A stretch of DNA of 41,760 nt from a virus. The notes under the pieces were generated by a model. It made no database searches and was not told where the DNA came from. It was given only the letters and a program-made list of their open reading frames with translations. The translations under genes and the position numbers were made by a program. Positions 2,654-32,720 of this stretch are shown piece by piece. Position 1 is the first letter of the stretch. Every line of letters starts with the position of its first letter. The DNA lies in IMG/VR virus record IMGVR_UViG_3300032249_000636, positions 1-41,760 of that record; one strand, 5' to 3'.

Positions 2654-2862
2654 ACTGTGGAATCTGCAAACACTTCAAGCCGTCCATCAAAGTGACGATG
2701 GGGCCATTCTTCGACGACGAAGATCCCATTGTTTGCGAGGGATTCGAGGGCGAGTGCAGGATTCTTCCTCCGGTCTGCCGGATGTTCTCGCGCAGGGCGC
2801 AATTTCCCATCGTCACGCGGGCTATGTCTTGCTCGCAGTTTGAGCCCGAAGACGACGAATGA
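2650..2862 (+). CDS. Cysteine-cluster small phage protein
   Basis: A 70-residue protein with cysteines at 3, 6, 29, 36, 43 and 61. The pattern CxxCKHF ... GECR..PPVC ... FPIVTRAMSCSQFEP is the layout of a widespread small protein seen in phages and bacteria (CxxCxFF, GxCRxxPP, FPxV, WCxEF). Those cysteines are thought to bind metal, and no function is established. It is coupled to both neighbours by ATGA overlaps. Confidence 0.65.
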   Translation: MNCGICKHFKPSIKVTMGPFFDDEDPIVCEGFEGECRILPPVCRMFSRRAQFPIVTRAMSCSQFEPEDDE

Positions 2863-3356
2863 AGCCGAAGCGGTCATTCGTGGCTCTGGACAACCAGAAC
2901 CACAAGGGGAACACGAATACATGGTTCACCCCTCCCGAAATCATTGCCCCTCTCGGTCCATTCGACCTCGACCCCTGCACGCAATCGTTCCGCCCGTTCG
3001 ACACGGCGGCTCGGCATGTCTGCGAAGACTTGGGCGAGGATGGACTTTCGGAAAAATGGGAAGGGCGCGTTTGGTTGAACCCTCCGTATGGTCCTTTTGT
3101 GGCGCGTTGGCTTGGAAAACTGGCCTATCATCGTGATGGAATCGCCCTTGTTTTTGCACGAACCGAAACGGAATGGGCGCAATCCATCATGCGTGATGCC
3201 GACGCCGTGAACTTTTTGTCTGGTCGCATCGCGTTTATTCGGGCAGACGGGACGGCAAGCACAAACGCGGGAATGGGTTCAATGCTCATCGCGTTCGGCG
3301 ATCACAATGTTGAAGCCATCTCGGGGCTCGACGGCATCATTTTGACGAAGCAATGA
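2859..3356 (+). CDS. Phage Dam-type DNA N6-adenine methyltransferase
   Basis: A 165-residue protein matching the phage DNA N6-adenine methyltransferase family (Dam, PF05869). It has the N-terminal W22-F-T-P-P, FDLDPC at 35-40, DGLSEKWEGRVW, then the catalytic NPPYGPF at 74-80 that positions the target adenine. The cofactor would be S-adenosylmethionine. Length is typical for the compact phage form. It sits directly before the terminase, coupled to it by ATGA, so it may be made late and mark DNA before packaging; that is inference. Likely role: self-modification of phage DNA against host restriction. Confidence 0.88.
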   Translation: MKPKRSFVALDNQNHKGNTNTWFTPPEIIAPLGPFDLDPCTQSFRPFDTAARHVCEDLGEDGLSEKWEGRVWLNPPYGPFVARWLGKLAYHRDGIALVFARTETEWAQSIMRDADAVNFLSGRIAFIRADGTASTNAGMGSMLIAFGDHNVEAISGLDGIILTKQ

Positions 3357-5623
3357 CCAAGATCACGGACAACCTTTTCATCGGCGACCTTGAGGACTGC
3401 AAGGTTGAGGGGATGTCGATTGTCCACGCCTGCAAACACCCGTGCCACAAGGAGAACTTCGGGACACCCGACGCCTCCGACCCGACCTATCTCTCGGGAG
3501 AAAAAGGAAACGACCTGTTCTTGAACATGATCGACCCTCCGGTGCCGTTGTTCAAATTGCAGATGTTCATGGTGTTCTTCGACTGGATGCAGTCGCGTCG
3601 GAATACTCCGGTCCTCATCCATTGCAACAAGGGGCAGTCGCGGTCGGTCGGGCTCGCCTTGCTGGAGATGGTTCGGCGCGGGGAAATCCCGGGCAAGACC
3701 TTCGATGAGGCGAGGGTATCATTTGATACCTTGCACCCCGGGGTCTTCCAACCCGGGAACGGGCTGGAGACTTTCTTTCGAGACAACTGGATGGAGTTGT
3801 TCCCCGTGGAACAAATCGAAGAAAAGCCGATGGAACTGACCACGGACAACGCCATCGGGGTTGTGAAGAATTCCGCCCTCGTCCACTTCGCGGGGTTCTC
3901 CGAAATCGAGGACAAGGAACACAAGTGGATCAAGCCGAAACCGAACGTCTTCCAATATCGGTGCTACGAGGCTTACGAGTGGCTCGACGCGCAGGGGGTT
4001 CCCATCCGTCTCGTTTTCCTCAAGCCTCGGCAGGTCGGGAGTTCCACGGTCACGGGTCATATTTGCTACCACCACTCGCGCAGGTATCGCGTGGACGGGA
4101 TTCTCATGGCCGACGAGTCCTCCCGAACCGACAAGATTTGGGAGATTTTCAACTCCTACCCGAAGCACGACCACTTCACCCCGCATTGGGATTCGTCGCA
4201 CACGTCGAACACGGAACGGGCGGTCTTCACCTACAACGACGGGCAAGAGGGGTTGTGGGAACGCGACACCGCGAATGACCCGAAAGCTGGTGCCGCTGGC
4301 ACCCGTCAGGTCGCGTGGATGTCGGAAGCTGGTCGCTACTCCAAGACGGGGCAGAGGCAGGACACGAAGGTAATCGGCAACGTTCTTTCGTCCCTCGCCG
4401 ACGTGCCTCACTCCCTCGGAATCTTGGAATCGACGGCAGAGGGTCAGGGAGGATTTTTCCAAGAGGCGTTTGAGGGTGCGGTGACGTTGGAGGAGAGGAA
4501 AAGGGGAAAGGTCGGCAACGGGTGGGTCAGGGTCTTCGCGGGATGGTGGGAGTTCGAGGAATACCAGTTGCCCGAGTTGCCACAGAACGCGGATTACTAC
4601 GACGACGAAGATCCCCGCTGGCAGCAGTTCAAGGAGCGGGAGAAGCGGGGCAAGATGCTCTACAAGTGGACGCCCGCTCAAATCGCATGGCGTCGTTACA
4701 TGATCGTGTCGAAGCTCGGCAAGAGCGAGTCACAGTTCGATCAGGATTACCCCGAGAGCCCCGAAGTGGCGTTTCAGGCGTCAGGGTCGCCACGGTTCAA
4801 CATCATGGGCGTGGCGAGGCTCAAGAGTCAGGCGTTGGTCGGTCACGACTACGGCAGGCTCGGGAATCTGGTCGAGAACAAAAACGTGGTCACGTTCATG
4901 CCCGGGGACCAATGGCTCTGGATGTGCGAGGAGCCCCGCTTCGGGCTCGAATATCTCGTCTTCATCGACGCCATGACGGGCCAGCAGTCCGAGGGAAGCG
5001 CAAAGCGTGACGCGCACGCTTGCGGGGTTCTCCGCAAGGGGTATTTCTCCGACGACAAACGGACGTGGCACAACACCCGACTGGTCGCCGCGATTCATGT
5101 TGACGGCGGGTGCCGATGGGATGACGACATTCTCGCCGAGCGGGCACTCCGCCTGTCCAAGTTCTACGGCGATTGCATTGTGATTCCCGAGGCCAACCAA
5201 GCCCTCGGTGTCATCCGGTGGCTGGCCGACAACGGGGCGTTCCTCTGGTTGCGCGAGAAAATGGATGAACTTGTCCCGGGCAAGCGGCACCTGATACCGG
5301 GATGGTTGACCACCCCCGGCGCGGCGGGCACCCGTAACCTATGGGTTAATGCCATCGCGGAATTCATCAGGGAGGAAACCCTCGACTGTTCCTTCATGCC
5401 TGCCGTTCAGGAGATGGAGACGTTCCAGCGGGGCGACCGAGGGATTGCCGAGGCCCGCCCGGGCAAGCATGACGATTGGGTTGCGGGACTTGGAATCGGG
5501 TTGTTCCTCCTCGACAACGCCACGATGATGACCCCGCCCCAAACGTGGTCGCAGTTCAGCGGGTCGTTTTCGTCCACCCCGGGGAATGAGGATCTCAGGG
5601 AAAAGTATCGCGGGTTGAGTTGA
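3353..5623 (+). CDS. Large terminase subunit with fused N-terminal dual-specificity phosphatase domain
   Basis: A 756-residue protein in one uninterrupted frame. Residues 1-150 form a dual-specificity/tyrosine-phosphatase-like domain: ITDNLFIGDLEDC, general-acid candidate D61 (MIDPPVP), and the catalytic loop H90-C91-N-K-G-Q-S-R97-S98 (HCx5R), all intact. Residues 165-756 are a large terminase (TerL). The Walker A-like KPRQVGSST lies at 224-232, the Walker B region AWMSEAG at 321-327, and the coupling motif ILESTAEGQGG at 357-367. The RNase H-like nuclease acidic residues are D539 (FIDAMTG), E613 (IPEAN) and D707/D708 (KHDDW). TerL pumps DNA into the prohead through the portal and cuts it. 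The start codon forms an ATGA overlap with the methyltransferase stop, so translation normally enters through the phosphatase. An internal ATG at 3830 (residue 160) could give a terminase-only form. Confidence 0.9.
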   Translation: MTKITDNLFIGDLEDCKVEGMSIVHACKHPCHKENFGTPDASDPTYLSGEKGNDLFLNMIDPPVPLFKLQMFMVFFDWMQSRRNTPVLIHCNKGQSRSVGLALLEMVRRGEIPGKTFDEARVSFDTLHPGVFQPGNGLETFFRDNWMELFPVEQIEEKPMELTTDNAIGVVKNSALVHFAGFSEIEDKEHKWIKPKPNVFQYRCYEAYEWLDAQGVPIRLVFLKPRQVGSSTVTGHICYHHSRRYRVDGILMADESSRTDKIWEIFNSYPKHDHFTPHWDSSHTSNTERAVFTYNDGQEGLWERDTANDPKAGAAGTRQVAWMSEAGRYSKTGQRQDTKVIGNVLSSLADVPHSLGILESTAEGQGGFFQEAFEGAVTLEERKRGKVGNGWVRVFAGWWEFEEYQLPELPQNADYYDDEDPRWQQFKEREKRGKMLYKWTPAQIAWRRYMIVSKLGKSESQFDQDYPESPEVAFQASGSPRFNIMGVARLKSQALVGHDYGRLGNLVENKNVVTFMPGDQWLWMCEEPRFGLEYLVFIDAMTGQQSEGSAKRDAHACGVLRKGYFSDDKRTWHNTRLVAAIHVDGGCRWDDDILAERALRLSKFYGDCIVIPEANQALGVIRWLADNGAFLWLREKMDELVPGKRHLIPGWLTTPGAAGTRNLWVNAIAEFIREETLDCSFMPAVQEMETFQRGDRGIAEARPGKHDDWVAGLGIGLFLLDNATMMTPPQTWSQFSGSFSSTPGNEDLREKYRGLS

Positions 5624-5672: not shown

Positions 5673-7850
5673 ATGGCTGATGGAGGCACAGGCTATCGTT
5701 CACGAACTCAATACGAGCGAGACAAGTCAATCGCAAGGTCTGCGACACGGGATGCCAACCGAGAAGAAATTTGGGCGACCCTGAACACTCGTCGTCAACG
5801 ATTGATTGAGGCGGGCGTGAATCCTTCGATGCTGCCGCCGATTCTCGGGGCCAACGGAGCAAAGCCCGACCCGACCGACACGGCGAAAATCGCCACGCAG
5901 TTGCAGGGACTTGAACAACAAAGGGGCATCACTCCCGAGGGGAAAAAGGACGGTTCCACGCAGCAGCAAACGCCACCCGCCGCGCAACAGAAAGTCGCCG
6001 CCGATCAGGCAAGCGCAACAGGCTCGGCGGTGTTGAACTATCCGAAGGGCGGACCACTGGCCGACATCCCTCCTCCGACCGCCCCAAAACAACTGCCCCC
6101 GGCGTTCGCCGCCGTGCAAGCCGCCAACCCGACCTTCACCCCGCAACAGGTCGCCGATGAATTGGTCCGTCAGGAAAAGGCACGCCAGCCCGCTATTCCA
6201 AATAAACCGATGGTTCCGAACCCGGGAATGGCCGCAAGAATCGGGGCGTCAAACCCCATTTTGGCTCCGACAATGGCCGCTGCCAAAGCAACCGAGATAG
6301 CGTTGGGGACAAATGTTACAGGATTGAATCCTTCCGCCTCCACGCCTGCGCCTGCTCCCGCCGCTCCGCCTCCTGCTCCCGTCGCCCCGCCCGCCCCGTT
6401 GGATGGAGTTCCGCAACCTGATTGGCGGACGGGTGTTCCGTTCGAGCGTTCTGCTCCATCGACGCCCGACAACCTGAATCTGGCCAAAGACCCTCTCGAC
6501 TACACGAAACCCGCCGCCGAGCGGGCGTTCACCGGGATGCAGGAGGGCGAAAAAGCCCGAGCCGCAACCGCCGAGGGCAAGACCGCCGCGCCCGCTGGCG
6601 GTGCCCGTTCGGGTGCGCCGAACTGGAAAGAGGGTGCCCCGATGCAGTTCCCGCACGGAACCGAGACGGTTTACAAGGACGGGAGTGGATTTTACACCAT
6701 TGGCCCCGTGTCACAGATGACGGGCCAACCGACCAAACTTCACTTTCAACCGAGTGCCGAGCAGGCCATGACCATCCAGCACGGTGACGACTGGATGAAG
6801 CCAAACCCGGGCGCGTTCGGTAATCTCACCGACGAGGACGCACGGAAGCGCGGGTTGCCCAACGCCCTCGCGTTGCAACGCAACCTCATAATGACCAACC
6901 GGACGCTCGACCAGTTCCCCGAGCGTGGGGCCGTGCCCAATGCTCCGCTTGCCGCCATCCCGCCGCCGCCCGCCGCCGCGCAGCCCACGGCACCCGCTGC
7001 CACCGCCGCGCCCGCCGCGACTCCGCCTGCCGCAGTCACCCCGGCACCGATCGTCGCGCCTACTACTGTCGCCGCCCCGCCGCCGAACGTGATGAACACC
7101 CCTGTTGCCCCGGGTGGAGTGACGACCAACTCGAACCCTGTTCAGCCCGTGACCGTCCCGGGTGCGCCCGCCGCCGCCCCGCTCAACACTCTCCCCGCGC
7201 CCGTTCCCGGCGTGAACACCAATCCCGGTCTGAATCCCAACCTGAACTTTCCGAAACCCGCCGCGACACCGTTTCCCATCGCTCCGCCGCCGACGGGTTC
7301 CGCGCCTGCCGCGCCCGCCGCCCCGGTCGCCGCTGTGCCAAACGGCCAACCTATCAGCGGGGCAAACACTGTCGGGGCACCGTTCACCGTCGCCACGTCT
7401 CCCGGGAGTCTTTCACCGTCGATTGATCGGCAACCGACGCCGCCACTGACCCCCGAACTGGCCGCACAGCGCGATCAGATCCGCCGCGCCCAAACCGCCG
7501 CGAATTTCGGGCAGCACGCAGACACCGCCAAATCCGCCAATGAATCCATGTTTCAAGCTGGTGTTGCTGTCGGCGGGATGAAGCCGCAACCGCAAGGAAT
7601 CGTGATCGGCGGGAACGCGAACAACCCGGGGTTCGGCCAAGGCAACGCCCCTACTCCTGTTACTCCTCCGACAACGGGGCAGGTTCCAATGCCTACCTCC
7701 AAGCCTCTCGATTCCCTTCCGACTCCGACATCAAGCCTTCAATCTGCCGCGCAACCGATGCAGTCCGCCCCACCGACCGCCCCGGCTTTGACGGGTGCTG
7801 TTGACCCCGAGGAGGAATTGCGGAAGAAGAAGCTCGCAGGCATCAAATGA
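5673..7850 (+). CDS. Pro/Ala-rich low-complexity protein, probable virion-associated
   Basis: A 725-residue protein of no recognised family. A charged N-terminal 45 residues (SRTQYERDKSIARSATRD) leads into long disordered Pro/Ala/Thr/Asn stretches (about 75-250 and 415-600). A folded-looking island of about 90 residues lies near 325-400 (ETVYKDGSGFYTIGPVSQM, then QPSAEQAMTIQHGDDW), and the tail is charged (PEEELRKKKLAGIK). The disordered composition resembles scaffold-like or ejected internal virion proteins. Its stop overlaps the start of the giant polyvalent protein as ATGA, so the two are probably made together and may be partners. Confidence 0.7.
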   Translation: MADGGTGYRSRTQYERDKSIARSATRDANREEIWATLNTRRQRLIEAGVNPSMLPPILGANGAKPDPTDTAKIATQLQGLEQQRGITPEGKKDGSTQQQTPPAAQQKVAADQASATGSAVLNYPKGGPLADIPPPTAPKQLPPAFAAVQAANPTFTPQQVADELVRQEKARQPAIPNKPMVPNPGMAARIGASNPILAPTMAAAKATEIALGTNVTGLNPSASTPAPAPAAPPPAPVAPPAPLDGVPQPDWRTGVPFERSAPSTPDNLNLAKDPLDYTKPAAERAFTGMQEGEKARAATAEGKTAAPAGGARSGAPNWKEGAPMQFPHGTETVYKDGSGFYTIGPVSQMTGQPTKLHFQPSAEQAMTIQHGDDWMKPNPGAFGNLTDEDARKRGLPNALALQRNLIMTNRTLDQFPERGAVPNAPLAAIPPPPAAAQPTAPAATAAPAATPPAAVTPAPIVAPTTVAAPPPNVMNTPVAPGGVTTNSNPVQPVTVPGAPAAAPLNTLPAPVPGVNTNPGLNPNLNFPKPAATPFPIAPPPTGSAPAAPAAPVAAVPNGQPISGANTVGAPFTVATSPGSLSPSIDRQPTPPLTPELAAQRDQIRRAQTAANFGQHADTAKSANESMFQAGVAVGGMKPQPQGIVIGGNANNPGFGQGNAPTPVTPPTTGQVPMPTSKPLDSLPTPTSSLQSAAQPMQSAPPTAPALTGAVDPEEELRKKKLAGIK

Positions 7851-10760
7851 AATCCCCGCTCGACGATCTGGTTGCCAGTGGGGCCGAGACGGCTGATGCC
7901 GTCAACAGGCAGATCACGAACCCGCCCTTGCCGGGAGAACTCCCTTCACAGCAGGTCCAACGCGAAGCGCAAGAGGGCATTGTTGAGGACCGACGCAACC
8001 GCATCAAGGCGAGTCAGCTTGCCGCCCGTGGTCTTGCCCCGTATCAGAATCCTGAAACGGGTGCCGTCGCCCCCGTCACCGATCAAACGGGCGTTCCAAT
8101 TACACAGTTCGACTCGAACAACAACATCGGATACGACGCGGCGGGCGCACCCGTGGAAGTCAGCTTTGACCCCTACGGGAACCCCAAGACGAAAGACCCG
8201 TTCGCCGATCTTCCCGCCCTGACCGACGACAAGACGGGCGACATCTACAAGGTCCGCAAAGGTCTTCCGTGGCAATGGCAAGGACGGGACGAGCGAATTG
8301 CCGAAGCTCGCCGACTGGAGGATGAGCAGAAGCAACTGGCGCAAACATCGTCGGCCCTCGGGCGGAAGTTGAGCCTCGACGAACACGCGGAAAAAACCGC
8401 CCTCGCGCAGCACGACAAACTTGCCGAGGATCTCGCCGCAAAAATCCCCGTCATCGCGGGCGAAGGGTCGAGAGAGGACAAAGAGCGTCTCCTCAACGAG
8501 CATTTCGACTCGGAGTTGAAGGGCGCGACGAAGACCGACGGATTCCTCGGGTTCGGCGGAAACCCAACCGAGGACTCGATTCGCCAGCAGCAGGACATCG
8601 AGGCCCGCCGCAAAGAAGCACTCGGGACGCTCAACCAGATTTACACCATTCAGGATGAGATTCGGGCGCGTCGTGACGCTATCGCCGAATCACAGGGGCA
8701 GGCAGTTTCCATCGCCGAGCAACGCCTCAAGGGCAGTCTTCAAGCGGCGGGAATGGATCTTCCCGAGGATACGCTCCGCCAGCAGGCAAAATCTCAAGTT
8801 GGGCCGACCACTCTCGATCTTGGAGAAGGTGAAGGGTCAGTCATCCCGATTCAGAAAACCCCCGGCCAAGTCGCCGCGCAGCAACGTCTTGATTCACTTC
8901 GCCAGCAGGGAGTTGATGTCCCGGGCTCGGTGCGCGATCTGCCAAAGAATCCCACGACGGGCGAGCCCGTCGTTCCATCGAACATCATTCCCGGCAGGGA
9001 TGAGGCGGGAAATCCTCTGCCCGACGGTGAATACGCTGGAGCCGCTCGGGCGATGGAAAAGATTGAGCAGGTTCCGCTGGATTTTTGGGACAAGTGGAAG
9101 GACGTGTCGCAGGACAACCCCGAGCAATTACTCCCGTATGTCGGTAGCGCGAAAGAAATCATCGAACTCGGTTCGGTTGGTGTCGCCGCCTACAAACTCC
9201 GGTCGGGTGAAGCCGATCAGGAAGACCTTGCCTTGCTCAAGGAATTCGTCGAGCGCAACAGTCGGGACACGACGTTCATGTATAAAGTCGGCGCAGTTGT
9301 CGCCGCCCTTCCCGCTTTCGCTGGCGAACTCCTCACAACTGGCGGAACCTACACGGCGGGATCTCGCGTCGGCATCAAGATTGCCAAAGAGGGCATGGAG
9401 TGGCTTGCCACCAAAGCGGGAAAAGAACTCCTCGAAACCGCCGCCGCGAAGTTTGCCGTCAAGGGCGCGGGTGCAATCACTGGCTCGGCGTTGCAAACGC
9501 TTCCGGCAAGTGCCCTGAGAATCAGCGCAGAAACCATGACTCGGATGCTTCCCGAGATGGAGGTCGCCGAGAACGACTTGGGACAACTGGAGGGCGTCAT
9601 CACCGCCGAGGGCGACGACCTGATTCCCGCCCTGACCAAATCGTTTGGCAACCAATACGTTCAGGTCATGTCCGAGCGGACGGGCGGGGCACTCGCTTTC
9701 ATCCCGGGCGCGAAGAAGCTGGAGGCACTCAAACTCGGGTTGATGAAGAAGTGGTTCGACGTGAACCCCAAAGCGACCCCGGGCATGTTCGCCTCACTGG
9801 TCAAGCAGGCGGGGTGGCACGGAGTTATCGGGGAAATGTTCGAGGAGCGTGTTGGCGAAGTCGCGGGCGGTGCCATTGCTCTCGCCGCTGGCGACAAGGA
9901 AAACCGAGACTTCGGCGCGACGGGTTCACTTTTGCGGGGCGACCCCGCCGCCGCCTTGGAACAACTCGCCGTTGAAGGCGTGTCGTTCATGGTTCCCGGT
10001 GCCTTGGGCTCGGGCGTCGGTGTCGTGGGTGCCAAGAAAGCCGAGAAGCGCACCGCCAGCGTGGCACAAGCCTACCAACAGGAAGGCAAGGTCTTCGATT
10101 CGGTCAACACGCTCGAAGGGATCTCGCCCGAGCAAGCCGATCAGGCTGAAAAACTACGTTTTACCGCACAGACCCGTCAACAGGCACTCGCCCTTCCCCT
10201 TGTGTCTCGGCACAAGTCCGCCATCGACGACACACTGGAGGAGGTTGATTTTTGGGGCAAGCAGGACCACACGGGCGCAAAGGCGTTCCTGACCACCCCC
10301 GGCCAGCACGTTTTTGTAGCACAAGAAGTCGGGTCAGGACTCCGCAACGATACGGGAGCCGCTCCGCTTTTCGAGCAGATCGAAAGCAAACTGTCCGAGG
10401 ACGGGATCACCAACGAGGTCCAACGGCAGGCGATGGCGAACCAGATGGTCGGCTCAATGGCTCTGGCGCGGACCATCGACGAAGTTGCCAAGGGAAATCC
10501 CGTCACCGACAAAGCGACCCTCCAGATGCTTCGGACGGCAGGGGTTGTCACGTCGGGCACCAATGACAAAGGCGAAATGCAGTTGGAGGTTGACGCCCGC
10601 GCCCTCCAGATGCTTCCCAAGTCGATTGCCGAGAAATACGCCGACGACCTTGCGAATCTGAACATCAGCAACCGCATGGAACGCGGGGCTATCGAGCCCA
10701 TGCAGGCCATGTCCGAAGCGGGGCGGGTGAAGATCGGAGAAGTCGCCGCCGCCCTTTCGC
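7847..10760 (+). other. Giant protein part 1: internal-virion-like region
   Basis: Residues 1 to about 970. Charged and helical up to 330 (many DE/RK-rich stretches such as EARRLEDEQKQLAQ). Then about 405-790 contains hydrophobic Ala/Gly-rich helices: VGAVVAALPAFAGELL near 480-496, GGAIALAAGD near 676, VPGALGSGVGVVGA near 714. Alternating soluble and membrane-active helices are typical of ejected internal virion proteins of short-tailed phages. No enzyme motif seen. Confidence 0.5.
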
Positions 10761-13700
10761 CTCTGGCAGAGGAGGTCCAAACCCCGGGAACCGAGGAAGG
10801 GGCAGACCCCGGGGGAGAGTTTTCCGACCCGCCCGTGGAACAACCTCCGCAGGCACCCGAAGGCGAACCACCCGTTGAACAACCTCCGATCACCCCCGAG
10901 CCTCCGGTCACTCCCGAGGGTCAACCCCCGGTTCCCCCGGTTACTCCCGAGCCGCCCATCACTCCCGAAGGGGAACCGCCCGTTGTTACCCCCGAGCCGC
11001 CTATCGCCCCCGAGGGTGAGCCCCCTGTCCCGGGCGAACAACCTCCGCCTGTCACCCCCGAGCCGCCCGTTGTTCCGCCGACCGATCAGCCGCCTCCCGG
11101 CGAACCTCCTGTCGCGCCTCCCGCGCCCGAGCCGCAACCCCCGGGCCAACCGCCCGCCGCACCCGAGGGGGAACCTCCTGTTGCTCCCCCGGGCCAACCC
11201 CCTGTTACTCCTCCCGCGCCTGAACCGCAGCCTCCCGGTCCTGAGACGAAAGGCCAGCCCGGGGGAGAACCCCCCGCGCAGCCGCCTGCCGCCCCGCCAG
11301 AGGGCCAGCCGCCGACGGGTGGCCCCGTGACACCCCCGGGCGGGCAAACGCCTCCCAAAGCCCCCAAAGCGCGGCGTCCCATCCCCAAAATTCCCGACAT
11401 CCCTGAAATCGACGACCTGTTCGGTGCTGGCCCCCGCCCGTCCGGTGGAGTGCAGGGTATCGCCCCGCAATCGGCGGAGCCTCCCGTCGATTACAACACG
11501 CCCGAGTTCAAGTCCAAGTTGGCCAAGATCGGCGTGAAGGTTTACCAGAGTGGCGTCACCGAGCCTGCCGACTTCGCGGGAGTCATCTACGACCAGCTTT
11601 TGCGGAACAAGGGCAAGGCCGACGCCGATAAACTCACGGGTTCCATGCTCGGAATTGCGTGGCTGGAGGTTCAGGACCAGAACCCTGACGCGGTTGATTT
11701 CAGTCGCACCGAATTCAATGCCATTTTGGCCGAACTCCGCGACAGCAACGAGGAGGCACCGCCCGGGGAACCTCCCATCGCCCCGCCCGAAGGCGAACCT
11801 CCGGTTGCTCCCCCCGAGGGTGAACCGCCCGCTCCGCCAGAAGGGGAACCGCCCGTTGCGCCCCCCGAAGGAAAGCCACCCGAGGGCGAACCTCCTGTTA
11901 CGCCGCCCGAGGGCAAACCGCCCGAAGGTGAGCCTCCTGTTGCCCCGCCCGAGGGTGAACCCCCGGCACCGCCCGAGGAAAAGCCTTTATTCCCCCACCA
12001 GTGGGGCGAATTGCCGGAAGACGGCGACCGCGTTGTAGTGTCGGGCGAATGGCCTGAGTTGCGGCAGAACAAGTCCCTCTACGGACTCTCGCAACTGACG
12101 GGAACGGTTGTTCGCGCCCGCAACGGCAAGATCACTGTGGATTTCGACCCGAACGACAACGGGCAGTCCTTCCCCGACATCGAAGTGCCCGCTGAGTTTG
12201 TCGCCCCCTACGATCAGGACACCTATCCGTTCCCGCGTGACACGAAGACCCTGAAAGAAATCGACGACTACTACGAGTCGGAACTCAAGGTCATCACCGA
12301 AATTGCCACCCGCAACGGAATCGGGTTTGCTCCTGTTGACCCGAAAGAGCAATCGGATGCCTACTATTGGGGTTTCGACAGGGCGATTCACTTAAACAAG
12401 GCGGCACTTTTGGCGCGGGCCAACATGACCAACACGGATTCGCAAACCCCGCTCAAGTTCATTCAGGCAGTCCTGTGGGAAGAACTCGGTCACGCCCTCG
12501 AACACAAGGCGGCGGGATTCGATTCGGCCAAGATGGCGCAGAACGATGAGTTGGTTTGGCGGGAGTTGGTCAAAAACAACCCGTCCCGCGCCGTGATGAT
12601 TGCAAGCACCTATTCATCGGCGAAAAGCGATTCCTACCTCGGGGCGGAATACGTCAGGATGGTGTTCCAGCAACAGGTCTTGGGATTCCCGACTGGTCAC
12701 ACGGAAAAACTGCCTTCGACCCCGACGCTTCTTCGCATCATGCGGAAGATCCTCGCGTTCCTGAAAAACGCCATCAAGCCCTCGAACCTTCGGACGCAAC
12801 CGATCTTGGAAATGGTCGTGGCCAGAATGACGAGTCTGGTCCGCCAACCCGGGGAGTTGCGGAAGATCACCGACAAATGGGACTACGCAGAGGCGATCAA
12901 GGAGCGAATTCTTGCGGGTGAGAAGTTGACCAACGTGGACGCGAGGAAAATGCGCGAACACAGCAACGTTGACTTCAAGGATGACAAGGAGATGGACGAG
13001 TTCATTGAACTCGGTGCCGTCCGCGCAATGCGAGTCATCGCCGCCGACACGTCGGTTTCGGTCGAGGAGACTTACGACCGTCTCGTTGAAATCTACCAAT
13101 CGCAGCCCGTCCTGAACAACCGCACGTCGGATTCGTCGATTCGTCAGGCTTTCTCGACCCCGCCTCCGCTCGCCTACTACGCGAGCCGCATGGCCAACCT
13201 CAAAGACAAAAACGGAATCGTCGGCGAGATGACGGCGGGAAATTCCGCCCTACTGGTGGAACTCAACCCGAGGACGCAACTGTATCGGGTCAACGAAATC
13301 GACCCCGAGCGTCGGGCGCGGTTGGAGTATCTCGGGTTCGAGGCAACCGGATTCGACGCCCTCATGGAGAAGGTGTTCAACGGGGATCTCGACACGCTTT
13401 TGCTGAATCCCCCGTTTGGCACGCAAAAAGACTCCATGAACGTGAGCAAGCCGTTCACGATCACCGAGGGCGAATACACCCTCACGACCACAAGGCAGGA
13501 CCACTACCTTGCTCTCAAAGCCTTGCAAGAGGGGCTCAAGGATGACGGGCGTGCCGTGCTGATTCTCGGGAGTGTCGGGGCGACAACGGACGAGGGGCGT
13601 AAAATCGACTACGGCGGGAAGCAGTTCGCGGAGTTCCACTTCATGCTGTCCCGTCTCTACAACATCGTCGAACACATCACTGTTGACGGGGCTCTTTACA

Positions 13701-16700
13701 ACCGGATGGGCGCGGCGTGGCCCGTGGATGTCATCACCATTCAGGGCCGCAAGCCGTCCACAAAATACTCGTTGCCGTCCTTCAAACCCCCGACTATGGT
13801 TACGTCGTGGGACGAGTTGCGCGAGCGACTGGCAGAATATGAGCATCCAACCAAAAAACCCGATAAGCCAAGTGGCGGAAGCTCTGGAGGACAACCCGGG
13901 GGAGGTTCTGATGGTTCGATTCGTCGGCCCCCATCCAGACCACAACCTGACGGGAAAGACGGAGGATCTGGAGGGAACCCTGACGGGGATACTTCACAAC
14001 CACCCGAATCAGGGAATGGTGGAAAGAACCCTCAAATACCTCCAACAACTCCAGACGGAACTCCTCCCGTCGAACCCGACGCCGAAGCAAAAGGCGGAAT
14101 ACCAGAACGCGATTCTGGACGAGATGCGGACGCTACTGGACAACCTGTAAGCGGGTTCCAAACTCCCTACACGCCTCTCTCGAAGGCGAAAAAGCCCGAT
14201 GGGATGTTGACTCCCACGGAGTTAAAAACCCCGCAGGAGCGGGCTCTTGCCACGTTGGAGGAAGACGTTGGCGACATCGACGCCTTTGTTGCCCGCGAAC
14301 TCGGTTACGATTTGGGCAAAGTCGTGTTGGACGATTTCAAGGGAAAGAAAATTGGCATCGACTCATTCAAGCAAGTCCGCGAACTCGGGGCCGAACACAC
14401 ATGGAACGAGGGCGACATTGTTCTTGAATTTCGAGACGGAAAGTTGATTGAAGCGTCACGAATTGACGATGTTGAGGAGTTCCTCAACGCCCCCCGATCA
14501 TCCATCAGGTTCATGGTTGGCATTGAAACGGGCATCATGGATGACGCGGCGTTAATGTCCTCGGGGGCACCGTCATTCGACGACCCGAACGCAACTTACT
14601 ACGTTGTCTCCGACCGCACAAAGAACGACCCCAAGAAGTTGTTGGCCCAACACTTCCTCGCCGAGCAGGTTGACTCCATCGCCCTCGCTATCTGGAACCA
14701 CGACCGAGGGCACTCGGTCATTGTCGGGCACCAGACGGGAATCGGCAAAGGCCGCATCGCGGCAGGTCTGATGAAGTGGGCGCGGTTGCGCGGAATGATT
14801 CCGGTCTTTGTGACGCAGAACGAAGGTCTTTACATGGAGATGTTCAAGGACATCGACGACATCGGCGATCACGCCAACGTCACCCCGTTCTTTACCAACT
14901 TGGCCTTGAACCAAGGAGCAGGTCTTTACGATGTCACGGGGTCGCTGTGGAAACCACGGCGCAGCAGGCAGCTTGCTCACTACAACACCATCGTTAGCAC
15001 GGGCGAATTGCCCATGATGGACGTGGTTGAAGCTGTCGATACGTCCACTATCGTTGATGAGGTTGTCGAGGAAACTTCTGACGCCCCGACGGAAGAAGGT
15101 GGCGCGGGAGTTCAGTCCGTCGGCAAAAAGGGCAAGAAGGGCAAGAAAAAGGGTAAGCCGACCGAGCAGACGCAGACCACGCAAAGGCGGGCGAACGTGG
15201 TGTTCACGACCTACTCACAGTTCAACGGTCGCCCCGGCCTGCCGCGTCAGGACGTTCTTTCGGCCATCGGAGAAAAAGCCTTCTTGGTTCTGGATGAGTC
15301 GCACGGTGCCGCTGGCGATAGTCAGGTTGGCGCGTTCATGGTCGGGCTGCTTGGAAACGTCGCGGGCGCGTATTACTCGTCGGCCACGTTCAGCAAAACT
15401 CCCGCCTCGATGGGGTTGTATCACCGCACGACAATGGCGGCATCAGGGGCGAGCCCCGACGAAATCATTGCCACCATGAAGGATGGTGGTCTGCCAATGC
15501 AGCAGGTCATTTCGGAAATGCTCGGCAAGGATGGCGTTTTGACCCGCCTCGAACGCGACTTCGGGACGGTTCGCTTTCACGATCAGGAAGGAACCGAAAA
15601 CAAAGACCGAGACTACGAGGCGGCACGCAACTTCTCGGGCATCACCAAAAAGATTGGCCGATACGATGTCGCCGCCCGCCAGCAAATGCGGACGCTTCAC
15701 AATTGGCTAGGGCAGTTCGGAATCACCGTCGTTGCCGGGACAAAGCCGCAATCGGCGAAGATGGCGTCCAAGGTTCCGTTCGCCAACCTGTATTACAATC
15801 TGGTCAACACCTACGTCTTGGCCCTCAAGGCTGACTCCATTGTGAAGGAAACGATTGAGCGGGTCAAAAGCGGCACCCCCGTCCCGACCGACCCGAAGGA
15901 ACTGGAGAAATACAACGCCGATCTTGAGAAAGACAACAAGCGCATCGCCGTGTTGGAGGCGTTGAGCAACCTGACTCCCGCCGAGGCGATGGAGTTGGAC
16001 ACGCTCAAACGTCGCCGCGAGGGGCAAAAAATCATCATTCAGATTGACCTGACGGGCGAAGCAGGATTGCAGGACATGGCAGGAAGCGGGGCGGACGCCG
16101 ACTTCCGTGAAATCCTGCAACGCTACCTTCGGAATTGCGCCCGCTTCAACCTCAAGTTGCCTCTTGGGCTCGGCGAGGTTGAGGGAAACCTTTTGCAGCA
16201 GCAGTCCGCCCCCGACATCACCCCGTTGCTGATTCGTGCGGGGCGCGACCCCGGCCAAGTCACGAAAGCTGTGGAGGAGTGGCAAACCCTCTGGAACAAC
16301 GCGCAGCGGAATTTGCAGCCCGAACACATGGAGGTCAATCACACCATCGAAAAGGCGAACCTTGGAGACTTCGCCGTTTCGCCGATTGACTACATTCAGG
16401 ACAAACTGGCCGAGGCAGGCATCGCGTCGGGCGACTACACCGGACGAGGCACGGCGGTCAAAGAGGGCAAGATTGTCAGTAAGCACAAGAACACCCGGGG
16501 CGACATGGACGCCCTGAAAAAACGGTTCAACAACAACGACGATTTCAACGTCCTCATCCTGAACCGCTCGGGTGCCGTCGGAATTTCGCTCCATTCATCC
16601 GTCACCGTCGAAAGCCACAAGCAGCGGGTCATGCTCTTGGCTCAACCGTCGCCCGACATCGCGGTGTTCATGCAGACCCTTGGGCGCATTTTCAGAACGG

Positions 16701-19700
16701 GTCAGGTGAACAGTCCTGAATACGTTTTCCTTCGGACTGCACTTCCTGCCGAATATCGCCTCGGCATCATGCTCCGCCGCAAGATTGCGTCACTCAACGC
16801 CAACACGACCAGCAACACCGAAAGCGATGTCTCCTCCGAGATGGAGGCATACGACATGTTCAACGAGTATGGCGACCGAGCCGTTTACGAGTTTTTTAAG
16901 GCGGACCTGATTGATTCGTTCAGAAACCACAAAACGCCCGTGATGGCGGAACTCCCTGAGTTGTTTTCCGACGCATCGCAAGCGGAACTTGATCGAGTTT
17001 TCGGTGCCTACATGGGCACGGGTGGAGCCTTCACCAGTAAAATTACTGGAGCAATGGGCGTCATCGACCCCTACGTTGCCGAAACGTTCTACGATGGCGT
17101 CATTGAGCGGTTCACCAGCACAATCAAGGCGTTGCAGAACGATGGCATCGACCCGTTCTCGACGGCGGCACTTGATTACAAAGCCGAGCCTCTCGGTGCC
17201 GCAGTTCAATTCACGGGTGCCGTTGGTGACAGCACATCCGAATTTGCTCAACCGTCCTTCATTCAGAAGATGAGGTTCAAGTCGGGCAAGGAGCCCGAGG
17301 ATGTCTTCGAGGTTTACAAAGAAGCGTCCGCCAACCGTCGCAGGATTGAAGGACAGTGGGGGAGGCTTGTTGCGCGTGGCGACTTTTCCCTGTGGGATAT
17401 TCAAGGTGTCGCAACCGACCCGTCCGATGAACTCTTGCCCGAGGAAAAAGACGACACGGTTTACACTTGGGGCCAAAGTGATCCGGCCAAAGGCAAGGAT
17501 GGCAAATGGTGGGTTCCAATTTTGGAGAACGCCAAGAACATCAAGAAACCCACCTTGGAAGATTACCGTCGAGTTCTGGACGCCACGGCGGCAGAGCATC
17601 TCGACCGACGCGGGAAGGCGATGACCAAACAGACCCGACAAGGTTTGGAGCAGAAGGTTGAGCGGGCATGGAGGATGGCGCAAACGGCAGTCCGCTTCAT
17701 GTATTCTTCGGACATCTACGCGAAACAACAGTGGATCTACCACGCGGGCACCGGGGCCGACGCCGCAGGGGCGGGCGGAGAAACCGCTTTGGCAATCATT
17801 ACCGACGTTCACTTCAACTTGGAAAAGCCTTTGGCCCCCTCCGAGTCCTACGTCGTCCTCAAGACCAACAACTCCAAGCATCACACCAAGAGACTCCAAC
17901 TCACCATGATGGAGGACCGCTTGAGTGCCTATCACGCCTCGACGGAATACGACACTGGCCGATCTTTCGCTTACAATTGGGAGGAAACCAAAACCGTCGA
18001 GACGGAGCGGTTTGTCATCACGGGCAACCTGTTTAACGGGTTCCGCGAAATGCGGGCTCTCGGGGTGCGGGGCTCCATCGTGAGGTTCACGCAAAAAGAG
18101 GGACCGGAACTCGTCGCCATCGAACTGCCCTCCACGTTTACGGGCGTTTCCGAGGAAATCATCAAGACTCCCGAACGGTTCATCGAAAAGGTTTTGCTCG
18201 AAGGCGTCACCGCAACCATCGCGGAAATCAAGGGCGACAAAACAGGGTTCACTGGAACGCTTTCTTACAACTCGAACTACGACCAAGTGTATTTTGAGGT
18301 CGATACCGACAAGTCGGGCAAGCTGAACACGAACCCCGCCATGATTGCCCTCACCGAAGGCGGCAATGGGTTCTACACTCGGCGCGGTCGTGGCTACCGC
18401 AGCACCTACATTGATCGAGCGAGGGTGGCCGAGTTCTTCAACTTCATCACGGGTGCCCCGTTCAACGCGCAAATCAAGGTGCCTGTCGTCACCACGGGCA
18501 ACGCGCAACCTCTCGGCACCACGTCAGCCAGCAATCCCGCCGTGCAACGGATGCTCGGGATTCAATCCAACGCGCCCCTCTCCGAACGCAACCAGAAGCA
18601 GATCGAGTGGATGAAGCCCCGCGCCACGAAGATGCTCGGTTACGAAGTGAAAGACCCACTCGGGGAACTCCTTCGGAACAAGTTCGACGCCTTTGTTGCT
18701 CTGGCCAAACAATTCGATAAGGAGGTTAGCCCGAAAGAGGGAAAGCAAGCCGTCGCCCCGCAGGGTGTCGCCCCGGCCCCCGAGGTTCTCAAGGTGTCCC
18801 GCAAGGAGGTCAACACCAAGCCGACCGAAGCGCAGAAAGAGGCGGGTAACTACAAGAAGGGGCACGTCACCCTTTCAGGTCTGGACATCACCATCGAGAA
18901 CCCGAACGGCACGCAGCGGACAGGCACCAGCAAGGCGGGCAAGCAATGGTCCGTTACGATGTTTGGCGACTACGGCTACATCAAGGGTTCGGAGGGGCAG
19001 GACAAAGACCACGTTGATGTTTTCATTGCCCCGGGAACCCCCGTCGATTTCGACGGACCTGTTTTCATCATCAACCAGATCAACCCGCAAACGAACCAAT
19101 TCGACGAACACAAGGTCATCATCGGGGCCAAGACCGAGGACGAGGCCCGGGCCATCTACCTCAAGAATTACTCGCCGGGGTGGAAGGGGTTGGCGTCGGT
19201 CGGGGGAATGTATTGGGGTGACTTCGCTCAATGGGCGCGGGGCGGAGGGGCCAAGGCTGGCCCTGCACCGATGTTGATTCCCTTTGGGGAGTCCACGTCC
19301 CCGATGGCCGACGCGACTCATCCTGTGGTCAGCAGGCACGCAACAGACCCCATCACAGGCGAGGGTGGCGACGGGGAAATCAGTGAGTTCGAGATGATCG
19401 AGCGTCAGCCAGTCGTTGTCTCTGAACAACCGACCGCCGAATTCAAGGGGCGGAGGATTGGTCGCCGGGAAATCGTCAGGCAGTTGAGTGCCGTTCTGGA
19501 AGCGGCGGGGCGCAACCTGCCGTTCAGGGTTGGCCGGATGCGCGGGCGGAAGGATGTCACGGGCGTTTTCAAGGAAATGCCCGAGGTTGTCCGGTTGCGC
19601 GAGGCTCTGAGTCTCGACGTGGCGGCACACGAATTAGGACACGCCTTGCAAAAGCTGGTTTACAAGACCATGAAGGCGGGCGCACTCAAGTCCCTCCCGA

Positions 19701-22655: not shown

Positions 22656-24923
22656 ATGAAACCACTCGTTCAAGGACTCCAACTTCTTCCGCCCCTCGAA
22701 CCCGAGGAGGTTTCGGAAATGACGCCGACCGCTCCGCCCGAGGATACTGAAACCGACGAAACGCAGGCGCAACCTCTCGCCATGCCCCCGTCCAAGATTC
22801 AGACGGGCATGAAGCTGACGAAAGAGCAGCTTGCCAAACTGGAGGAAACGACGAAAACCCGCATCGAGGAACTCATGCAGGAGATGGGGCTCGAACACTC
22901 CCGAACCATCCGTCCCGACTCGTTTCTCGGCATGAGGCAACGGTATCAGGACAGCTACGACGGCGACTACTCATGGCGCAAGGGGTTGGGCGGGATCTTC
23001 AACAACAGCAACTTCACGAAGGGCACGAACAAGCGTTACGTCCGCAAAACCGCCGCCAAGATGAGGGATGACCTACTCGGCACGTCTCCGTTCTTTGCCA
23101 TCCTCCCGGCCAAAGCGGGGATTGTGGGGGGTGATTCCAAGTCGAAGTTGGCGCAGCAGATCGAGAAATACATCCAGCGTGAAGTCGAGCGGTCCAACGT
23201 GCGCGAGGGGATTCGGATGGCGCAAAAGTGTGCCCTGATTCGCAATGAAGCGGTGGCAAAGATCACCTACCTGATCGAGTCCAGCCCGTATATGGCTGAT
23301 GCCGAAGTGCTGGTTGACCAGACGGGCAATCCGGTCAAAACAGTATCCGGCCAATTCATCTACAAGGACGACAACTTTTTCGCCGACCCGAATGTTGAAG
23401 GGGTGTTTCGCCTCGAAAAAGAGGCGACGTTCCAGATGACCGAGGGGCAATACAAGTTCCAGAATGTTCCGTCGCTCAAGCAGTATCGAATTCACTACAA
23501 GAACGTCGATTGCCGCGTGGTGGACTACCGCTCATTCCTCTGCCCGCTGACGGCAGAAAGCGTCCACAAGGCTGATTGCGTCGTGCAACTCATGGACCTG
23601 CCCGAAGATCAGGTGCAAGAGATTTACGGGAACATCGACACGTTCAAGATTTACCAGTCTCGCCTGACTGCCAACGACCCAATCTCCGGTGAAGAAGCCG
23701 CCAAGGAGGCTCACGGCGAGGACGAGTTCACGGCGAAAAGTGCCGAAGCGGTCAAGGTTCCTCTCGCCGAAGTGTATCGCAGGTTCGACGCCGACGGGGA
23801 TGGAGAGTCCGAGGAAATCTTCATGGTGTTCGACATGCTGAACAACAAGCTGATCTTTTGGGACTACCTGCACAGGCACATGGAGAAACGCCCGTTCGAG
23901 GTCATCCCGGGCATCGAGAGTGTTCCGAACCGCTGGTATGCCGTCGGGGTGTTCGCCACGATGGAGGACCACGGGCTCTATATCGACGGGCAGTTCAACC
24001 GCGTGAACGTGGCCGATTCCAAGTCCGAGACGGTTCGATTCAGGGTCAGGAACTCGGTGCGTCAGTGGAAAGATGGAAACCCGATTGTTTACGGTGGCAA
24101 CGATACTCTCGACGTGGAGAACGGATACGACGCCAAGAACCCTCCACTGTTTCAGGTCAATCTGGCCCAACCCTCCGAGATGGGTATGGCCCTTATGCGG
24201 GAAATGGAGCAGGCCGGGGATCTTCTGTGGGGTTCCATCTCCGCGCAGGATGCGTCCGCCTCCAACCTCAACCAGTCCAAGACTGCCACGGGCATCCTGA
24301 ACCTTGAGCGGGTCGGCGACATTCTCATCAAGGATGCCGAAATCGACCAGTCCGTTGCCATCACGGCAATCATGGGTCAAGTGGTTTCCGTCTTGCTGGA
24401 AAACCTCGACCCCATCGTTTCGGTTTTCAGCGAGGAGGAAAGTTCAATGGTGTCCCTCAACCGCGAGGAAATCCGAGACATCGAAAAGGACATCCGACTT
24501 CTCCTTACGCGAAGCCGTTCGGTCGAGCAGTTGGCGGTGAATGAAAAGTCGGAAGCGATTTGCTTGCGCTACTTCCAACTGAACCCGTATCAACAGTTCC
24601 ATCTTCGCCCGCTTTACATCTTCCAACTCAAGAGCCTCGAAGTGCCCGACGCCGACGAGTTGCTCCCCAAGGTCACGGAGCAGGACGTTGCAGCATGGCA
24701 GCAGGCGCAGGCGCAAAAGCCCGATCAGGAGCCCAAGGAAATCCTCAACTACAAGGACGCCCCGCCGTCCGTGAAACGTCAGATGGAGCAGGCGTCCGGT
24801 TACGTCCCGGGCACACAACAAGAACACGTCGATGAACAAAATGTCATTAGATCCAAAGGAACAGACCCTAACCAACCTGAGAATCCGCCTGTCGAGGCTG
24901 GCGGTGCTTCGGGCCAATCCTGA
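22656..24923 (+). CDS. Portal protein
   Basis: A 755-residue protein with the length and layout of podovirus-type portals. The N-terminal 50 residues are disordered, then comes RQRYQDSYDGDYSWRKGLGG. A long mixed core includes an acidic loop DADGDGESEEIFMVFD near 372. LNQSKTATGILNLE near 540 is a typical portal stem/crown signature, followed by a long helix and a Gln/Pro-rich tail. The portal is the dodecameric ring at one capsid vertex through which terminase pumps DNA and to which the tail attaches. It starts one base after the giant gene's stop, with no Shine-Dalgarno sequence in between, suggesting reinitiation by the same ribosomes. Confidence 0.8.
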   Translation: MKPLVQGLQLLPPLEPEEVSEMTPTAPPEDTETDETQAQPLAMPPSKIQTGMKLTKEQLAKLEETTKTRIEELMQEMGLEHSRTIRPDSFLGMRQRYQDSYDGDYSWRKGLGGIFNNSNFTKGTNKRYVRKTAAKMRDDLLGTSPFFAILPAKAGIVGGDSKSKLAQQIEKYIQREVERSNVREGIRMAQKCALIRNEAVAKITYLIESSPYMADAEVLVDQTGNPVKTVSGQFIYKDDNFFADPNVEGVFRLEKEATFQMTEGQYKFQNVPSLKQYRIHYKNVDCRVVDYRSFLCPLTAESVHKADCVVQLMDLPEDQVQEIYGNIDTFKIYQSRLTANDPISGEEAAKEAHGEDEFTAKSAEAVKVPLAEVYRRFDADGDGESEEIFMVFDMLNNKLIFWDYLHRHMEKRPFEVIPGIESVPNRWYAVGVFATMEDHGLYIDGQFNRVNVADSKSETVRFRVRNSVRQWKDGNPIVYGGNDTLDVENGYDAKNPPLFQVNLAQPSEMGMALMREMEQAGDLLWGSISAQDASASNLNQSKTATGILNLERVGDILIKDAEIDQSVAITAIMGQVVSVLLENLDPIVSVFSEEESSMVSLNREEIRDIEKDIRLLLTRSRSVEQLAVNEKSEAICLRYFQLNPYQQFHLRPLYIFQLKSLEVPDADELLPKVTEQDVAAWQQAQAQKPDQEPKEILNYKDAPPSVKRQMEQASGYVPGTQQEHVDEQNVIRSKGTDPNQPENPPVEAGGASGQS

Positions 24924-26735: not shown

Positions 26736-27083
26736 ATGAGTGCGCCTATTGAGCTAACGTGGAAGCGAAACGACACAGGGCGTCTTAATATCATCGTTAC
26801 GCAAGCCAACGGGTCGCCCTACGACATCACGGGAGCATCTCTTTTTCTTACCGTCAAGAAGTCAGCGGGGGTGCCTGACGCCTCCGCTCTCATCTCCAAA
26901 AAAGTTACAGCACACGACGACCCGACAAACGGGGAATCTCATTTTTCCATCGACACCACTGACAACGACATCAGTGGTCGCTACGTTTTTGACGTTCAAA
27001 TCAAGACGGCAGCCGACGACGTATGGACGCTGTTCGATGGAGTCTGGAAGGTTGTGTCCGACGTGACGCAACGAGTTGCCTGA
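26736..27083 (+). CDS. BppU N-terminal-like tail/baseplate beta-sandwich protein
   Basis: A 115-residue single-domain protein with the strand pattern of BppU-type N-terminal domains from phage baseplate and host-attachment proteins: ELTWKRNDTGRLNIIVTQ, GSPYDITGASLFLTVKK, SHFSIDTTDNDISGRYVFDV and a final strand VWKVVSDV. Such domains anchor receptor-binding fibres to the tail. The next gene, two bases after the stop, is a collagen-like fibre, which fits. The family match is by pattern only. Confidence 0.6.
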   Translation: MSAPIELTWKRNDTGRLNIIVTQANGSPYDITGASLFLTVKKSAGVPDASALISKKVTAHDDPTNGESHFSIDTTDNDISGRYVFDVQIKTAADDVWTLFDGVWKVVSDVTQRVA

Positions 27084-27084
27084 C

Positions 27085-28863
27085 ATGTCGCAAAATTATC
27101 AAATCACAGTTCCGGCACCCGCCCAAATCTACCAGATCACGGCGGCGATTCCGCCTACTCAAACGGTCGATGTTGCGGTTCCGACTGTTGGGCCTGCGGG
27201 CGAGCAAGGGGCGCAGGGGCCACAAGGACCACAGGGGCCACAAGGCGCGGCAGGGGCGTCGGCATGGGAAGACATTACAGGAAAGCCAAGCGTGTTCCCT
27301 CCCGAGCCAATGACGTTTGCTGGCACGAAATATCTTAGCTCGACTCCATCTGTGTTGACGGCGGCACGGAATCAACTTGTGTTTGTATTCTGCACCGGAG
27401 TTGGAGGAATCCTCCAGCTTCCAACTACGGGCAACCAGCTAGGCGACCTGTGCCAAGTCGTGACTAAGGGAGGAACGATTCCGGCCACCGTCTTGAACAA
27501 AGATGGTTCTGTTGTCGCTGGTCTTGAAGGCTCATGGCAGCAGGCGATTTTGTTCATTTACGCGCAGTCTGTTGATTCGGCCACATGGTATCCGGTGAAT
27601 CGAGACACCATCAATCACTCGGGAGACGCTTTAACCCCGCTGTCCATTGAGCCGACCTCGTTTTTGCGATTGCCTTCGGCTCCCTCTGTAAGCCCGTCCT
27701 CGGGCGATCTTTATCGCAACGGAAATGCGTTGGTCTTTTTCGATGGGTCGGGAACCCCTCAAACGCTAGTAAAACTTACCGACTTGGCTTCGCCTCCCGC
27801 CATCGGAAACACAACTCCCTCGACTGGCGCGTTCACAACGTTGTCAGGAAACAACGGAACGCTTACCGCTTCTGCTCCTGTTCTGGGTTTAGCACAAGTT
27901 TGGAACAACTCAGCAGTAGCTTTTACAAGCCTGAAACTCGCAGTAACAAACACCGCAAGCCTTAATTCAGCAAGCGGTTCAAAGTTGCTAGACATTACCA
28001 TTGATGGTTCTTCGCTCTTTCGTTTGCAGCGGAATTTTTCGGCTGGCTATCTCTATTTTGGAACAACGGATACCGGAGTTGGCGCAGCGGCTTCTGGCAC
28101 AGTTCTCACTCTTATTTGCAACGGTGGAGCCACCATGCAAATCGGTTCTGGCGCAGGTGGGCCAGTGATTAGGTCTGATTCAAGCTACGCATGGGCATCT
28201 TCTACAAACATAACGTCCTCTGCTGATTTGGTCATTACAAGGGATGCCGCAAACATCCTTGCCCAAAGGAACGGAACCAATGCCCAAGAGTTTCGCATTT
28301 ACAACACCTACACCGATGCTTCCAACTACGAACGAGGGTTCATCCGTTGGACTTCCAACATCCTCCGTATCGGAACGGAAAAACTTGGGACGGGTTCAGA
28401 CCGCGCTATTGAATTTTGGCGCAACGGAAGTAGGTGGGCATACATTGATGCTAGCGGTTTTTTCAATGCTGACGGAGGATTTTTGTCAGGTGGTCAAATT
28501 CGTGTTGCAGCATCAGCGGCACTTTATTGGAGTGCAAGGACCATGCTGAAATCTCCAGCAGACGGAACGCTTAAACTTTCAAATGTGGCGGAAACGGATT
28601 TTGGCACCTTACAATTTGGTGGCACAACAAACCTTTTCCCCGCTATCAAAAGAAATGGAACAACCTTAGAAATTAAGACGGCATCTGATTCCGCCTTTGC
28701 TGGTCTTGCCGCTGGCAATCTAACGCTTTATCCGTCTTCCAGTGTTACCCCAAGTTCCGTAAGAGGTGAAATCGTTGTTGAAGCCACCAGCAACACGACG
28801 CTTACTTTCAAAATGCGCGGCCTTGATGATGCTATCAGAAGCGGAACAATTACTCTCTCCTAA
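27085..28863 (+). CDS. Tail fibre with collagen-like stalk
   Basis: A 592-residue protein. A short N-terminal adaptor (MSQNYQITVPAPAQIYQITA) is followed by eight Gly-X-Y triplets at residues 36-59, then WEDITGKPSVFPPE, a head-binding-type beta region, and a long Ser/Thr/Asn/Gly-rich beta-solenoid-like body ending TFKMRGLDDAIRSGTITLS. Collagen triplets followed by such a body are typical of trimeric host-recognition fibres. The ATG at 27085 is preferred over an in-frame TTG at 27076 because it falls just after the previous stop. From about 27800 the DNA is visibly AT-richer than its neighbours with relaxed third positions, consistent with an exchanged receptor-binding region. No clear C-terminal chaperone domain is seen. 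Confidence 0.8.
   Translation: MSQNYQITVPAPAQIYQITAAIPPTQTVDVAVPTVGPAGEQGAQGPQGPQGPQGAAGASAWEDITGKPSVFPPEPMTFAGTKYLSSTPSVLTAARNQLVFVFCTGVGGILQLPTTGNQLGDLCQVVTKGGTIPATVLNKDGSVVAGLEGSWQQAILFIYAQSVDSATWYPVNRDTINHSGDALTPLSIEPTSFLRLPSAPSVSPSSGDLYRNGNALVFFDGSGTPQTLVKLTDLASPPAIGNTTPSTGAFTTLSGNNGTLTASAPVLGLAQVWNNSAVAFTSLKLAVTNTASLNSASGSKLLDITIDGSSLFRLQRNFSAGYLYFGTTDTGVGAAASGTVLTLICNGGATMQIGSGAGGPVIRSDSSYAWASSTNITSSADLVITRDAANILAQRNGTNAQEFRIYNTYTDASNYERGFIRWTSNILRIGTEKLGTGSDRAIEFWRNGSRWAYIDASGFFNADGGFLSGGQIRVAASAALYWSARTMLKSPADGTLKLSNVAETDFGTLQFGGTTNLFPAIKRNGTTLEIKTASDSAFAGLAAGNLTLYPSSSVTPSSVRGEIVVEATSNTTLTFKMRGLDDAIRSGTITLS
27190..27261 (+). repeat. Collagen-like Gly-X-Y stalk, eight triplets
   Basis: Residues 36-59 of the fibre: GPA, GEQ, GAQ, three GPQ, GAA, GAS. 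The DNA shows the CCACAAGGA/CCACAGGGG near-repeats expected of a slippage-prone collagen tract. Confidence 0.85.
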
Positions 28864-32633: not shown

Positions 32634-32720
32634 AAACCGTCGCTCCAAAACATCGAATCAGCCCTTGTGGCCTCATTGGTGCCTTCTCTCTCAGTCACAA
32701 AACACAACCACACAAGCACT

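Follow-up and report, generated by a model that had tools for sequence, protein, structure and literature searches.

Large terminases (TerLs) such as T4 gp17 and its relatives consist of an ATPase domain and a nuclease domain, without a phosphatase domain. Packaging motors are known for these two activities and, to the best of our knowledge, reversible phosphorylation is not established in the control of such motors. Dual-specificity phosphatases (DSPs) include the human MKP/DUSP enzymes of eukaryotic signalling, and they also occur in phages: Vibrio phages VpV262 (ORF44) and 1.077.O (NVP1077O_32) and Tunturiibacter phage Tunturi_3 (ORF146) each carry one as a separate gene of ∼155-170 codons. 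The phage DSP family corresponds to phrog_5614, which is listed in PHROGs as of unknown function. On the bacterial side, phosphorylation enters phage biology through kinase-based anti-phage systems such as Stk2 (PMC9146914) and KKP (PMC11341870).

The window, by which we mean the whole 41,760-base stretch of viral contig analyzed here, is the source record of a gene in which a DSP and a TerL are joined in one reading frame. Below we describe this fusion, a second phage that carries it, and the placement of free-standing DSP genes relative to TerL in other phages.

Results

The fusion gene and its parts are as follows.

3353..5623, + strand: DSP-TerL fusion gene, 756 aa, an unbroken frame of 756 codons; same layout in L013:5989-8292
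3353..3802, + strand: DSP domain, residues 1-150 (AlphaFold2 model, PDB fold matches, profiles, Pfam)
3533..3535, + strand: D61, presumed general acid, invariant in 89 rows
3620..3646, + strand: phosphate-binding loop HCNKGQSRS, H90-S98, with nucleophile C91 and R97 (sequence; 89-row DSP alignment)
3800..3841, + strand: inter-domain linker, approximately residues 150-163, including ATG codon 160 at 3830-3832 (low pLDDT)
3842..5620, + strand: TerL, approximately residues 164-756, with ATPase at ∼164-480 and RNase-H-like nuclease at ∼481-730 (T4 gp17 matches, motifs)
4019..4048, + strand: Walker-A-like LKPRQVGSST, residues 223-232 (sequence, alignment)
4967..4969, 5189-5191, and 5474-5476, + strand: nuclease acids D539, E613, and D708, conserved in 98-100% of 170-173 rows

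A preliminary description of this DNA had proposed a single 756-codon frame joining phosphatase and terminase, and the open reading frame is indeed unbroken from 3353 to 5623 and recurs in a relative. The start codon overlaps the stop codon of a Dam-type methyltransferase gene as ATGA at 3353-3356, which bears out the suggested translational coupling between the two genes. The internal start proposed at residue 160 fared less well; an ATG is present at 3830-3832, but it is accompanied by neither a conserved start nor a clear ribosome-binding site. No clear ribosome-binding site was found at codon 160 or at the candidate internal starts of the relative, and the latter lie at positions that differ from codon 160. 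A separate, short TerL form lacking the phosphatase is not supported by the sequences compared.

The HCx5R(S/T) loop with its nucleophilic Cys and Arg is present as H90-C91...R97-S98, and an Asp suited to general acid catalysis, D61, lies ∼30 residues before the Cys, as had been claimed. C91, R97, D61, N58, G11, G94, and S96 are invariant in the 89 DSP rows gathered by our searches, where the search pattern partly forced the C, N, G, and S positions and left R97, D61, N58, and G11 unforced. Structure prediction and profile searches of this half alone, which the preliminary description had recommended, return a DUSP-type domain. AlphaFold2 models residues 1-150 (41 sequences) with a pLDDT of 94.3 and a pTM of 0.89, and the PDB structures closest to the model are MKP/DUSP catalytic domains, with the phosphatase chain of 4yr8 as the top match (Z 15.4; 129 residues aligned at rmsd 2.3). 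The family profile matches DUSP22, DUSP10, and VHR at E ∼1e-10. Pfam DSPc (PF00782) is matched by 40 of the 41 family members (E up to 0.01, best 2.4e-12), and the window's own domain scores 19.4 bits, under the curated cut-off of 33.5. We regard the DSP as probably catalytically active. In profile and in fold, it agrees better with a DUSP/MKP-type protein phosphatase than with an RNA-end phosphatase.

The second half also proves to be the complete terminase that had been described. The ATPase motifs (K224, R226, Q227, G229, S231, T232, E325, and STAEG at 360-364, of the form STxxG) are conserved across ∼174-178 rows. Searched separately, this half matches T4 gp17 both by profile (E 1e-14) and by fold (E 1.4e-19), and the gp17 nuclease is matched by profile as well. 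The gene lies on the same strand as the portal (22656) and major head protein (32667) genes. By its motifs, its nuclease acids, and its genomic place, the protein qualifies as a large terminase, as far as sequence comparison can tell. Between the two enzymes, residues 153-161 have a pLDDT of ∼44, below 50, in a model of the whole fusion. The pTM of that model is 0.58, with two sequences only covering the DSP half, so that the arrangement of the domains carries no confidence. A mixed alignment in which terminase rows had slid into the DSP region was discarded for this model, and another alignment was used.

The neighboring genes of the window are the following.

2859..3356, + strand: Dam-type adenine methyltransferase (Pfam Dam 9.6e-13, phrog_111)
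5673-7850: 725-aa middle protein, encoded after the fusion and ahead of the giant protein; neither Pfam nor PHROG gave a match
7847..22654, + strand: giant polyvalent protein, 4935 aa, homologue in the other fusion phage (G002) at E 6e-219
22656..24923, + strand: portal protein (Pfam SU10_portal), homologue in G002 at E 2e-164
27076-28863: probable tail fibre with collagen-like repeats
32667-34292, + strand: major head protein

A DSP alignment was scanned against 2.9 million viral contigs, and the best 80 of the 112 relatives that emerged were retained. This search uncovered the same fusion, 767 aa long, in IMG/VR 3300037423_001858 (64,967 bp; L013:5989-8292). The preliminary description had asked whether the two genes are always separate in relatives, and they are not. 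The two fusion proteins are 46.8% identical over 756 aligned columns. A contig from another metagenome (L014) shares an identical 10,650-base stretch with L013, with zero differences, and the two were therefore counted as one lineage. Identity between the two fusions is 49% in the DSP, 36% in the linker, 52% in the ATPase, 47% in the nuclease, and 24% in the C-terminal tail; judged by these values, the phosphatase half is as constrained as the essential enzyme to which it is joined. Both phages also share a block consisting of the fusion, a middle gene, the giant protein, and the portal. The giant protein of the window (4935 aa) combines a Strawberry-notch-type helicase, an InPase-like domain, and LPD38; its homologue in the other phage has 4537 aa. 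No similarity was detected between the 725-aa middle protein and its 507-aa counterpart.

The TerLs of the two fusion phages are sisters (tree support 98), and their DSPs group with those of L015 and L019 in a tree that is not fully resolved. One fusion event would explain these trees most simply, though it is not proven. The fusion was found in these two phage lineages only, among the best 80 of 112 DSP relatives and in scans derived from TerL. When the DSP scan was repeated with a deeper alignment, it returned 112 relatives once more, headed by the same contigs, and no further fusion was seen. In the TerL-derived scans of viral contigs (∼160 loci), a DSP occurs in the examined flanks only in the known fusion phage; the flanks examined for the nearest unfused TerL relatives (33-35% identity) contain none, which suggests that packaging by this type of TerL does not need a DSP nearby. 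Bacterial and archaeal genomes scanned with the fusion alignment yielded no relative, with peptide patterns that reach close kin only.

Besides the fusions, all phage DSPs found (best 80 of 112 relatives) are separate genes, and we located TerL in the records that bear them with PHROG models. Both genes are present in 44 non-redundant contigs. In 32 of these, counting the fusion, the DSP precedes TerL on the same strand by less than 3.5 kb, and in none of the 44 does it lie just downstream. Because short contigs favor closeness, contigs longer than 35 kb were counted alone, and there the DSP lies just upstream of TerL in 16 of 23, vs 4 of 30 for control families from the same records (Dam, metallophosphatase, ParB, and HNH; Fisher p 3.5e-5). 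Seventeen adjacent cases, Tunturi_3 included, belong to one clade, so the raw 32/44 overstates the number of independent events. Counted by TerL lineage, the difference is modest (6/13 for DSP vs 4/30 for controls, p 0.028). The TerL partners of the DSPs fall into six clusters, hence at least six lineages, without mutual BLAST similarity.

In the cultured acidobacterial phage Tunturi_3, the DSP (ORF146; L003, PP885686.1 96572-97081), ORF147, and TerL (ORF1) are consecutive across the circular join, which places the DSP two genes upstream of TerL; the main text of the paper describing this phage does not mention a phosphatase. The DSPs of VpV262 and Vibrio phage 1.077.O, among others, lie far from TerL. 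A scan of ten genes situated between DSP and TerL gave no clear family and no recognizable small terminase. Twenty-four of these DSP-TerL records, the window among them, yielded no Ser/Thr kinase; phosphorylation of any protein substrate would therefore fall to host kinases or to kinases that were not recognized.

Two features of individual records were noted in passing. The TerLs adjoining DSP genes at L028:1865-4321 and L029:1271-4219 look by eye to be interrupted by an intein-like insertion, with HINT-type sequence after the N-terminal motif. In Vibrio phage 1.077.O (L004), the DSP sits in a run with a HAD acid phosphatase, and a metallophosphatase-like gene lies a few genes further upstream.

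Discussion

The two-enzyme protein is real and, in our reading, selectively maintained. An assembly or sequencing error, or an unselected loss of a stop codon, might have joined two neighboring genes, given that DSP and TerL are often adjacent and that a TGA lies in another frame just past ATG codon 160. The preliminary description had named this risk. The same in-frame fusion is found, however, in an independent, 47%-identical phage assembled from two metagenomes, and both halves are under equal constraint. We therefore reject error as the source of the fusion and consider an accidental joining of either kind hardly tenable; that the fusion is real is virtually certain.

What the phosphatase does is a matter of more graded judgment. 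The targets suggested in the preliminary description (one of a host kinase, the portal or terminase itself, or RNA ends) are conjectures. As the likeliest reading, we propose that an active, Cys-based DSP, tethered to a full TerL through a flexible linker, works beside the packaging motor, where it would remove phosphates from Tyr, Ser, or Thr residues of TerL itself, the portal, the small terminase, or procapsid proteins. Host kinases would be the source of these phosphates, and their removal would keep packaging unblocked. The fusion would fix the dose of the two enzymes at 1:1 and place the phosphatase at the portal. We give an even chance to an active phosphatase tethered to the packaging motor that dephosphorylates motor-associated proteins, and the case that the DSP acts in packaging or assembly, and not elsewhere in the cell, seems to us evenly balanced too. 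More tentatively, and with some doubt, one may suppose that genome packaging is under the control of phosphorylation state in a wide range of tailed phages, with a DSP family that travels with TerL across unrelated phages and became joined to the motor in one clade.

The main rival is that the DSP acts on host targets, in takeover or in counter-defence against kinase-based immunity, and that the link to TerL only secures late, dosed co-expression. The description of kinase-based anti-phage systems, Stk2 (PMC9146914) and KKP (PMC11341870), in work on other phages makes a counter-kinase role plausible, several DSPs lie away from TerL amid other accessory genes, and the linker is flexible, with no confident joint orientation of the two domains (pTM 0.58). 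A free enzyme acting on the host would not need a covalent tie to an essential motor, however, early takeover would be ill served by a late gene, and the linkage recurs with unrelated TerLs above the level of control genes. We regard action on host targets as possible but doubtful.

Given that TerL produces DNA ends, the DSP might instead remove phosphate from nucleotides or from the ends of nucleic acids (RNA 5′ ends, DNA ends, or 2′ phosphates) during DNA cleavage and packaging. The family does weakly match the Rit1-type (Init_tRNA_PT) and PTP-SAK DSP models, and the DSP of Vibrio phage 1.077.O is found amid other phosphatase genes. RNA-triphosphatase DSPs, however, generally carry the loop HCxxGxNR, unlike the HCNxGxSR seen here. 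Nearly all members of the family (40/41) match DSPc, which is also the best match, and the fold neighbors are protein phosphatases. We hold this activity to be unlikely. The fold neighbors also include a pseudophosphatase (STYX-type, 2r0b), in line with a non-catalytic or scarcely catalytic module for phospho-binding or docking, for instance in motor assembly, yet C91, R97, and D61 are kept here and in all relatives found, which leaves such a module a slim chance.

Relation to Known Systems

The open-access papers that we searched contain no description of a DSP-TerL fusion or of a recurrent DSP-TerL neighborhood. Phage DSPs and TerL are each known separately, and the fusion is a new domain architecture. 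These findings point to an undescribed tie between protein phosphorylation and genome packaging. The covalent link, taken with the recurrent neighborhood across unrelated terminases, offers a testable route to phosphorylation control of packaging, which predicts phosphosites on packaging proteins. Tunturi_3 provides a cultured phage in which the DSP-TerL question can be looked at, and a role is suggested for phrog_5614.

Each half of the protein has described counterparts. The TerL half is like T4 gp17 and related terminases in its domains, fold, and motifs. The DSPs of VpV262, 1.077.O, and Tunturi_3 share 28-31% identity and the same catalytic residues with that of the window, from which they differ in being separate genes. 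The human MKP/DUSP domains (DUSP16, DUSP8, DUSP10, DUSP22, and VHR) have a like fold (Z 13-15) and the HCx5R loop at 15-22% identity. KKP likewise links protein phosphorylation to phage propagation, but it does so in defence with a PP2C-type phosphatase and two kinases, whereas the window holds a DSP within the phage's packaging enzyme (PMC11341870).
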